This document shows, piece after piece, positions 21,545 through 38,114 of a stretch of DNA of 38,169 nt (position 1 is the first letter of the stretch; each line of letters begins with the position of its first letter). The position numbers and the translations under genes were made by a program. The notes under the pieces were generated by a model, which had not been told where the DNA came from, ran no database searches, and saw only the letters and a program-made list of their open reading frames with translations. This DNA is from Ignisphaera sp. (GTDB lineage: Archaea > Thermoproteota > Thermoprotei_A > Sulfolobales > Ignisphaeraceae): positions 1 to 38,169 of the forward strand of contig JAJHQM010000007.1 of assembly GCA_020833345.1 (NCBI GenBank), in the 5' to 3' direction.

Positions 21545-22438
21545 TTAAGCGTTGTTTCCCTTCATTATGTACCTTATAACCTCATTTAAATCCTTATCTA
21601 ACTTAAATTTCCTTTTAAAGAATTTTAATATATTTTCTACATCCTTTTTAAGAACCTCATAAGCTCTAGGATCGGCTGTAGAGACGTACTGTGGCCAGTC
21701 AATTATATAACTTTTCATATTTTCCAAGTTTATTATAACATTATGTTCACTAAGATCGCCATGAATAAGCTTTGCTTTGCTATAAGCATTCTTAATAATA
21801 TCGATTATCTGTTGCAATACCTCTTCAGGATTCTCAAGGTATTCCACAGCATATAAGTCAACACCAGGTATATATTCAATAACAACTGCATGTAGGGCTC
21901 CTCCATAGAATTTGGGAACACCATTTATGGAATACCTATTTAATATAGTTAAAGCTTCTCTTTCTCTACTACCTGATACTATGCTCTTAATGAGCCATGA
22001 TGTGCCCTTAGTTTCATTACCATAACTTCTCACTTTACTTATATTTCTAAAGCTTTTCCAGATTCTGTGAAACTTTATAACTACAGTACCACCATCTTCA
22101 GAAATCCCCATGTACAGCTTACTCTCCTTACCTACACCGATCTCATCCCCTATTGCTTTCACAATATTTTTCATAACTAATCGATGTAAAGCTACGCAAT
22201 CTAATCCGAGAAAACACAATCTATATGCCTCCATAGTTTGATGACGCTCTATTAGCTTAAGCTTAACGAGTTTCTTGACTCGAGCTACAATCTCCTTATC
22301 TGAAAGCTTTTTCTTAAAATTCTTAACAATGACTTCTAATGGTATGTATTCAAACCTGTTTAAGTTATGTACAAAGTGCTCTAGCAGCTGAAAGTCTTCG
22401 TGAACAAGCTTTTTGTATATAATGCCAATCTTCGTAAT
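21545..22438 (-). CDS. rio2: RIO2-type atypical protein kinase, probably starting at ATT
   Basis: Kinase/ATPase of small ribosomal subunit maturation. The kinase domain has VGKESKLYMG (nucleotide loop), catalytic LIHGDLSEHNVII and the RIO2 form of the metal site, YIIDWPQY. An N-terminal winged helix, typical of RIO2, is encoded upstream of the first ATG (22232-22234): IYKKLVHEDFQLLEHFVHNL, FEYIPLEVI, KKLVKLKLIER. In that frame there is no ATG, GTG or TTG back to the stop. ATT at 22436-22438 lies five bases after AGGTG and yields MITKIGIIYKKL, about 297 residues, the normal family length. Alternatives are a +1 frameshift from the preceding mini-ORF, or a sequence error. Confidence 0.85.
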   Translation of the reverse strand: MTKIGIIYKKLVHEDFQLLEHFVHNLNRFEYIPLEVIVKNFKKKLSDKEIVARVKKLVKLKLIERHQTMEAYRLCFLGLDCVALHRLVMKNIVKAIGDEIGVGKESKLYMGISEDGGTVVIKFHRIWKSFRNISKVRSYGNETKGTSWLIKSIVSGSREREALTILNRYSINGVPKFYGGALHAVVIEYIPGVDLYAVEYLENPEEVLQQIIDIIKNAYSKAKLIHGDLSEHNVIINLENMKSYIIDWPQYVSTADPRAYEVLKKDVENILKFFKRKFKLDKDLNEVIRYIMKGNNA

Positions 22439-22439
22439 A

Positions 22440-22523
22440 CTAACACCTATACGTCTTAGTGTCAGTGGCGGCCGCGTTTCTCTTCATTCCTCTTAGGTCA
22501 AGAGCGCGGGATTCTTCATCCAT
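22440..22523 (-). other. GC-rich rio2 leader: 27-codon mini-ORF and/or C/D-box-like RNA
   Basis: The minus strand opens with ATG at 22521-22523, about 25 nt after a TATA box, and reads 27 codons to a TAG at 22440-22442; the proposed rio2 ATT begins one base later. The codons are GC-rich (CGC, GCG, GCC, TCC), unlike neighbouring genes. The same stretch also carries ATGAAGA (22513-22519), TTGA (22498-22501), ATGAAGA (22481-22487) and CTGA (22462-22465), a degenerate C-D'-C'-D order. It may be a leader peptide, a guide RNA, or both. Confidence 0.45.
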
Positions 22524-22542
22524 GTGCTAATACTAGTATAAC

Positions 22543-36777: not shown

Positions 36778-37008
36778 ATGAGTAAAACTAAAGTTGTTGG
36801 TATTGCGGGAAGATTTGGAGCCAGGTATGGGGTTAGTTTAAGAAAGAAGTGGAAGGAGGTTATGGAGAAAAGGTATGCTGAATATCAGTGCCCATATTGC
36901 GGAAGCATTACAAAATTTAAGAGAGTAGCTTTTGGAATTTGGCAATGCCCAAAATGTAGAGTTAAGTGGGCAGGTGCTGCATATACACCCTGGACTATAG
37001 AAAAGTGA
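36778..37008 (+). CDS. rpl37ae: Large-subunit ribosomal protein L37Ae
   Basis: A 76-residue zinc-ribbon ribosomal protein. It has the family start KVVGIAGRFGARYGVSLRKK and a zinc site from CPYCG (residues 39-43) and CPKC (about 58-61). Its location after rrp42 is the usual archaeal order. The RNA polymerase subunit P gene that often follows in archaea is not found between here and the Brix gene. Confidence 0.97.
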   Translation: MSKTKVVGIAGRFGARYGVSLRKKWKEVMEKRYAEYQCPYCGSITKFKRVAFGIWQCPKCRVKWAGAAYTPWTIEK

Positions 37009-37152
37009 GTTTGTATAGAAATTTGTGTAGTATTCCCATTAACAGAAAATTTCTAACATATTCTCTTGCTTTTGTGAGCGTATATCAAAAGTTATAAAGC
37101 GCGCAATACAATTATTAATATGAGTTGATTTTATATTAATTAGGGGGGCTTT

Positions 37153-37794
37153 ATTCAAAGTAAAACACTGCTTACAACATCGCATCGCCCTTCAAGAAAT
37201 ACCCGCCGGCTAGCTAAGGTACTAGCAAAGCTCATACCAGGCTTTACAAAAATAAATAGAGGTAAGCTAACATTTAAGCTCTTAGTTCTTCAATTACTTG
37301 ATATGAATTACGATAAGCTTGTAATCATCAGAAACAGGAAGGGTAATCCAGGTTATTTAGATCTCTATATTGTAAAACCTCCTGGTGAATTAGTTAAAGA
37401 ATGTACAATAAAATTGTGTGGATATTCTGTAACAAGCAACTATAGTAAAATAACTAGTGTTAAGCAAGTCCTTTTAAATTTGGCACCAGCTATACTTAGT
37501 ATTGAAAAAACAAACAAAGCATATATAGATCATATACTACAAACACTGGATTGCATTATAAAGATGTTTAATGTTACAATAACTAATAAGGATGAGGATT
37601 TAAAAAAGAGGGCTGAAAGCATTTGCATGAACATAGACATGGCTAAGCCGAAAAAAGATCATGATGCTAAGGATAGAAAAATATTCTTTAAAATAGTGTT
37701 CGCCAAATGTTCCAACAAAGAGAGCTACTTAACATTAAATATTTGTAATAATAAGTGCAGCACACGTAGTGATGTACTTCAGCAGTACTTATAG
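37153..37794 (+). CDS. Brix-domain (IMP4-like) ribosome biogenesis protein, probably starting at ATT
   Basis: Archaeal Brix proteins act in rRNA maturation. The N-terminal Brix signature TLLTTSHRPSRNTRRL, then LIPGFTKINRGKLTF and LVIIRNRKGNPGYLDLY, is encoded upstream of the first ATG (37303). In that frame, back to a TAG at 37144, there is no ATG, GTG or TTG. ATT 37153-37155 lies four bases after a run of six G and yields MQSKTLLTTS, the correct family N-terminus, for 213 residues. The C-terminal half is Lys- and Cys-rich and diverged. CTG at 37168 is a weaker alternative. Confidence 0.83.
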   Translation: MQSKTLLTTSHRPSRNTRRLAKVLAKLIPGFTKINRGKLTFKLLVLQLLDMNYDKLVIIRNRKGNPGYLDLYIVKPPGELVKECTIKLCGYSVTSNYSKITSVKQVLLNLAPAILSIEKTNKAYIDHILQTLDCIIKMFNVTITNKDEDLKKRAESICMNIDMAKPKKDHDAKDRKIFFKIVFAKCSNKESYLTLNICNNKCSTRSDVLQQYL

Positions 37795-37829: not shown

Positions 37830-38114
37830 ATGAATGTTAAAGAGAGCATAAGTAATAAAGCCTGCATTACGTTAACCTTTAGTAGTGAAGAATGCAATAT
37901 TGCTGAGACAATCTATAATAGTATTTTTGCTGAAGTTGTAAACCCTGCAAATGTTGGAAAGATTGTAACAAACATTGATTTAAATGGGTGTACAATTAAA
38001 ATTTGCATAGAGGCTGATACCTTAAGTCATTTGCGAGCTTTTTTGAATTCTATTCTCTACTTAACTAACACATCCATAGAAGTCATAAAAATTGAGAAGA
38101 AAAAATTTAAGTAA
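37830..38114 (+). CDS. pcc1: KEOPS complex subunit Pcc1
   Basis: Small dimerisation subunit of KEOPS, which makes t6A at position 37 of ANN-reading tRNAs. The 94 residues show the Pcc1 pattern: a strand ITLTFSSEE, helix ECNIAETIYNSIFAEVVNP, strands KIVTNIDLNGCTIKICIEAD and helix LSHLRAFLNSILYLTNTSIEVI. The ATG follows AGGTAAAGTT. Position next to rpl37ae and Brix is the conserved archaeal arrangement; prefoldin beta, often next, lies instead in the divergent operon. 55 nt follow without a gene before the window ends. Confidence 0.86.
   Translation: MNVKESISNKACITLTFSSEECNIAETIYNSIFAEVVNPANVGKIVTNIDLNGCTIKICIEADTLSHLRAFLNSILYLTNTSIEVIKIEKKKFK

Follow-up and report, generated by a model that had tools for sequence, protein, structure and literature searches.

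In bacteria, organelles and eukaryotes there are isolated examples of translation starting at AUU, CUG or ACG, and the archaeal initiation factor aIF1 is thought to reject starts other than AUG, GUG and UUG. E. coli infC, which encodes IF3, has an AUU start and works by AUU discrimination (work cited in PMC9845219), and chloroplasts can convert an ACG start to AUG by editing (PMC9845219). For archaea, the start codons given in review are AUG, GUG and UUG (PMC7531240), and in S. solfataricus aIF1 is reported to destabilise non-AUG complexes (PMC6237735). Here we describe a Brix-domain gene of Ignisphaera, an archaeal genus, from a hot-spring member, that most likely starts at an AUU beside a ribosome-binding site, as judged from sequence comparison. 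The gene lies in a 38,169-nucleotide stretch of DNA, the whole of which we call the window, and the features around it are as follows.

37153..37794, + strand: Brix-domain gene (archaeal rRNA maturation / IMP4-like) with a proposed ATT start, protein MQSKTLLTTSHRPSRNTRR..., from the order-wide alignment
37143..37148, + strand: GGGGGG, proposed Shine-Dalgarno site of the Brix gene, -5.9 kcal/mol with the anti-Shine-Dalgarno sequence GAUCACCUCA
37153..37155, + strand: ATT, proposed Brix start codon, the sole in-frame near-cognate at ribosome-site distance
37168..37170, + strand: CTG, rival near-cognate start without a ribosome site; archaeal Brix models begin about here
37303..37305, + strand: ATG, first in-frame standard start, whose use would delete 50 conserved residues (reading frame and site-pairing check)
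36778..37008, + strand: upstream neighbour, ribosomal protein L37Ae-like, ATG start, named by sequence and gene order without a family search
37830..38114, + strand: downstream neighbour, Pcc1 (KEOPS subunit), ATG start, Pfam PF09341
37092..37099, + strand: TATA-box-like TTATAAAG, read by eye

The first-pass annotation had placed the Brix N-terminus 50 codons before the first ATG, in a frame without ATG, GTG or TTG, with an ATT four bases past six consecutive G, and the sequence bears out both points. From stop to stop the frame occupies 37144-37794 (+), bounded upstream by TAG 37141-37143; the conserved N-terminus TLLTTSHRPS is encoded from 37165, and no ATG, GTG or TTG occurs upstream of ATG 37303, 50 codons past ATT 37153. 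The first G of the six (37143) is the final base of that TAG, and CTTT then separates the tract from the ATT. ATG 37120 is in frame, but TGA 37126 and TAG 37141 come next, and TTG 37125, in another frame of the leader, is closed by TAA 37137. The two other frames near the leader hold no usable standard start, so a one-base indel would rescue none. Judged from the TATA-box-like element, transcription would begin near 37120, leaving a leader of about 30 nt. At about that predicted transcript start stands ATG AGT TGA (window positions 37120-37128), possibly a two-codon leaderless minigene before the AUU.

Homologues of the Brix protein were detected in 40 of 41 genomes, and its N-terminus could be aligned across 29 relatives throughout the order. 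Compared with the nearest relative (G004, which is referred to again below), the 49 codons from ATT 37153 to ATG 37303 carry 4, 5 and 19 changes at codon positions 1, 2 and 3, and the following 70 codons carry 25, 18 and 32, a sign of weaker constraint; no part of the protein is better conserved than the 50 codons that precede ATG 37303. Because of this order-wide conservation and the 4/5/19 pattern, the segment upstream of ATG 37303 is coding and translated. NCBIfam models for archaeal rRNA maturation and ribosomal biogenesis match the N-terminal part of the frame from residue 8-9 (E 6.8e-14, under the curated cut-offs); a Pfam search of the protein gave no Brix-domain match, and a scan of the genome contigs with the protein gave no match. 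The start codon itself differs within the genus, being ATT, ATA, ATG or TTG. In G002, a member of the same genus whose Brix gene also has no well-placed standard start, an ATA stands 7 nt after GGTG and would give MYKVLITTSH, the sole standard candidate being a TTG 19 bases away; other Ignisphaera members have ATG or TTG near the same place.

The pairing of -5.9 kcal/mol before ATT 37153 compares with -0.3 before CTG 37168 and -0.4 before ATG 37303, against a background of random 14-mers from the window with a 5% quantile of -6.3 and a 10% quantile of -4.9; the anti-Shine-Dalgarno sequence used is an assumed one, the genome's own 16S 3' end not having been found in the stretches read. The Brix GGGG lies 4-6 nt from the ATT, which is rather close for this genome, where both GGGG and GGTG have modes of about 7, and the G-tract differs from the usual GGTG core. 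As a Shine-Dalgarno-led start, the Brix gene has a purine-rich site at proper spacing and a proposed codon outside the set of AUG, GUG and UUG.

It had been proposed from the same window that a second ribosome-biogenesis gene, rio2, likewise starts with ATT. Its features are these.

21545..22435, - strand: rio2 gene, proposed start ACG 22435-22433 (MKIGIIYKK...), Pfam RIO1 and Rio2_N
22436..22438, - strand: ATT, the rio2 start first put forward, with GGTG no more than 5 nt away (relatives' starts, spacing and pairing)
22444..22448, - strand: AGGTG, rio2 ribosome site, -6.3 kcal/mol

The GGTG is 5 nt upstream of ATT 22438 and 8 nt upstream of ACG 22435, and in all four of the related genomes G004-G007 rio2 has an ACG at 7-8 nt from GGTG, which in two of the four directly follows a stop codon. 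ACG 22435 is therefore the likelier rio2 start on these comparisons. Directly upstream of rio2 (about 22436-22530, - strand) we also noticed C/D-box-like motifs (GATGA ... CTGA) that are conserved in several Ignisphaera genomes; the element had no Rfam match at the gathering threshold, and the rio2 leader may thus contain a C/D guide RNA.

Conserved genes without a standard start were surveyed in 1.11 Mb (85 of 102 contigs) of the window genome, a draft assembly (G000), and in 0.8 of the 1.88 Mb of a single-contig genome of the same genus (G010), presumed to be the I. aggregans type strain, for which an error rate below 1 per 100,000 bases is given (PMC3035270). A comparison of all open frames was flooded by antisense shadow frames, and a non-overlapping gene set was used instead. 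In both genomes the GGTG site of genes with one clear standard start lies mostly 7-8 nt upstream. A strict rule, under which no standard start may occur between the upstream stop and ten codons inside the conserved block, left 10 of 389 genes in G000 and 7 of 369 in G010; once cbf5 exon 2, one fragment and those genes in which an ATG follows a little further on were excluded, 7 and 5 remained (about 1.8% and 1.4% of the genes tested). The cbf5 exon was dropped as a probable consequence of an intron, and an RNase Z-like gene, the gene at C35:32371 and several fragments were dropped since each can be accounted for by a standard start slightly downstream or by a gene that is broken. In G000 (C18, minus strand), in G010 and in L206 of the same family, no start codon opens the second part of cbf5, which is consistent with the known archaeal cbf5 intron (PMC2738675). 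The apparent near-cognate starts were as follows, gene names without a family search behind them being readings from the sequence.

rpL34e: ATA start, G000; no standard start, ribosome site
rpS2: CTG start, G000; GGTG at 7 nt
cmk: CTG start, G000; GGTG at 7 nt
thiolase: CTG start, G000; GGTG at 7 nt
SRP19: ATA start, G000; no standard start, ribosome site
SWIM-like protein: ATT start, G000; no standard start, ribosome site
radical SAM protein: ACG start 9 nt from the site, G000; no standard start
pheS: ATT start, common to G000 and G010
EMC3-like membrane protein gene: ACG start, common to G000 and G010
purQ: CTG start, G010; GGTG at 7 nt
unnamed ACG gene and unnamed ATT gene: G010; no standard start

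The rpS2 of G000 shares 92% identity with its counterpart in Ignisphaera sp. RSNS13, which has GTG at the exact codon where G000 has CTG. In both genomes the AUU, AUA, ACG and CUG starts sit 6-9 nt after a ribosome site. When one fixed rule is applied to the 12 genes that have a GGTG site (doubtful ones counted), 9 carry a near-cognate codon at 6-8 nt, and with an interior background of 0.16-0.17 per site this gives a P of about 3e-5. Roughly counted around every N-terminus of G000, codons placed by GGTG show no overall near-cognate excess (0.188 vs 0.174), because most GGTG near starts are incidental; the genes that lack any standard start are therefore the only informative subset. In G000 all 11 near-cognate starts pair at -5.9 kcal/mol or below and 56% of ATG starts at -5.8 or below (P 0.0017), a comparison biased in favour of the near-cognates because the algorithmic step was followed by selection by eye, for which the ribosome site was in part already known. 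Of the habit suggested by the first-pass annotation, the recurrence is borne out, non-standard starts behind ribosome sites being found again in the genome and the genus; a habit of AUU in particular is not supported, since ACG, CUG and AUA are among them as well.

Taken with the survey, the evidence at the Brix locus leads us to give a probability of roughly 0.7 to its translation from AUU 37153 as one case of a genome-wide near-cognate tolerance in Ignisphaera. That Ignisphaera, and perhaps the wider family, has a broadened start set (AUU, AUA, ACG and CUG, at about 2% or more of conserved genes, many of them essential) we regard as somewhat favoured by the evidence. In other genera and families 2 of 203 genes qualify, as compared to 12 of 758 in Ignisphaera, a difference that is not significant (Fisher p 0.75). 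Outside the genus the qualifying genes are rpS13, with a likely CTG start in L210 of another family, and a gene with an ATT start in L206, which is the homologue of G010:C1:168952, the ATT being common to L206 and G010. Near-cognate starts may therefore extend beyond Ignisphaera, and their restriction to its lineage is unproven. We found no earlier report of AUU, AUA, ACG or CUG starts in archaea in the open literature, to which our search extended, subscription papers lying outside it.

A start at CTG 37168 (MLTTSHRPS) would still be near-cognate, and it has some appeal: this is roughly the residue from which archaeal Brix models run, the codon aligns with the only standard candidate of G002, a TTG, and CTG starts are likely for rpS2, cmk, thiolase and purQ in the genus. 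Yet this CTG has no ribosome site, being 19 nt from the G-tract with a pairing of -0.3 kcal/mol, unlike every other CTG start, which has GGTG at 7 nt, and the Brix genes of most relatives start several codons upstream of its position; we consider it an unlikely start. The ATG at 37303 is the earliest in-frame standard start and would imply a truncated protein, whether from a decaying gene or as a shorter product, but the 50 codons before it are those best conserved and under coding constraint, and it too is without a ribosome site, which makes this reading barely credible. An error of sequence or assembly, such that the true codon is ATG or an indel conceals a standard start, would need only a single change from ATT in what is a draft assembly. 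No indel in the leader yields a standard start, however, many independent genes repeat the pattern, and shared near-cognates recur across independently assembled genomes (the ATT of pheS and the ACG of the EMC3-like gene in G010, the ACG of rio2 in G004-G007), and so we find an error very improbable. Nor would an mRNA intron of the cbf5 type, hiding an upstream exon with a standard start, be needed, given the ribosome site immediately in front of the ATT.

Alternatively, the AUU might couple ribosome-assembly genes to the activity of an initiation factor, by analogy with the autocontrol of E. coli infC. Brix and rio2 are indeed both ribosome-assembly genes, and rpS2 and rpL34e have near-cognate starts too, and a shared control of ribosome-assembly genes had been suggested on sighting the first two. 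The set is a mixed one, however, including pheS, cmk, thiolase, SRP19, purQ, a radical SAM protein and others with four different codons, and the Brix start varies within the genus. Near-cognate starts are thus not confined to translation and ribosome-assembly genes, as judged from the gene list rather than from an enrichment statistic, and since the set is neither AUU-only nor ribosome-assembly-only, shared control is not supported; we rate such coupling as highly doubtful.

Returning to AUU initiation at 37153, we envisage that the G-tract of a short leader would pair with the end of the 16S rRNA and set the AUU in the P site, where the ordinary initiator tRNA would read it as Met, the strong pairing presumably offsetting the codon mismatch. 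Across Ignisphaera, AUU, AUA, ACG and CUG would, besides GUG and UUG, start about 1-2% or more of conserved genes, with a good site about 7 nt upstream; we infer that these codons are actual starts from the coding N-termini, the missing standard starts, the site geometry and the recurrence. Most likely the start codons have drifted because discrimination is relaxed, perhaps at some cost in output, and a dedicated control of ribosome assembly is the less likely origin. Drift is suggested because the start codon varies within the genus; against it, the ATT of pheS and the ACG of the EMC3-like gene are kept between two distant genus members. As to the initiation machinery, 39 of 41 genomes have aIF1, all those of the genus among them, that of G000 aligns to a solved archaeal aIF1, the initiator tRNA retains A1-U72 and GGG:CCC, and uS9 terminates in R. 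With aIF1 present and alignable, and nothing unusual about the tRNA or the uS9 tail, none of these three shows an alteration. The aIF1 of G000 (G000:C43:13520-13738, - strand) begins MKKDAYCAGLPPELC and by eye is without one cysteine of CxxCGLPxELC, the motif of other archaeal aIF1.

If our reading is correct, initiation in Ignisphaera leans on the placement of the ribosome site over the identity of the codon, and gene finders confined to AUG, GUG and UUG would truncate or miss genes with near-cognate starts, which in turn points to N-termini truncated in databases. The apparent AUU, CUG and AUA starts of conserved genes such as pheS, rpS2 and rpL34e, of which a part occur in a type strain that is in culture, would make the fidelity of archaeal start-codon choice directly testable.

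The likeness to infC lies in a near-cognate AUU behind a ribosome site in a translation-machinery gene. However, infC stands alone as an autocontrolled gene of a bacterium that has IF3, as compared to several codons and many unrelated genes in Ignisphaera, which has aIF1. With the near-cognate starts of chloroplasts and eukaryotes (ACG, CUG, AUU) Ignisphaera would share the identical one-mismatch codon set, although the ribosomes and factors differ, and nothing speaks for an editing of ACG to AUG in Ignisphaera. The Ignisphaera starts resemble Shine-Dalgarno-led archaeal initiation in their GGTG-type site at 6-9 nt, ordinary initiator tRNA and the presence of aIF1, and they depart from the reviewed archaeal set of AUG, GUG and UUG (PMC7531240) in that AUU, AUA, ACG and CUG would be used as well.
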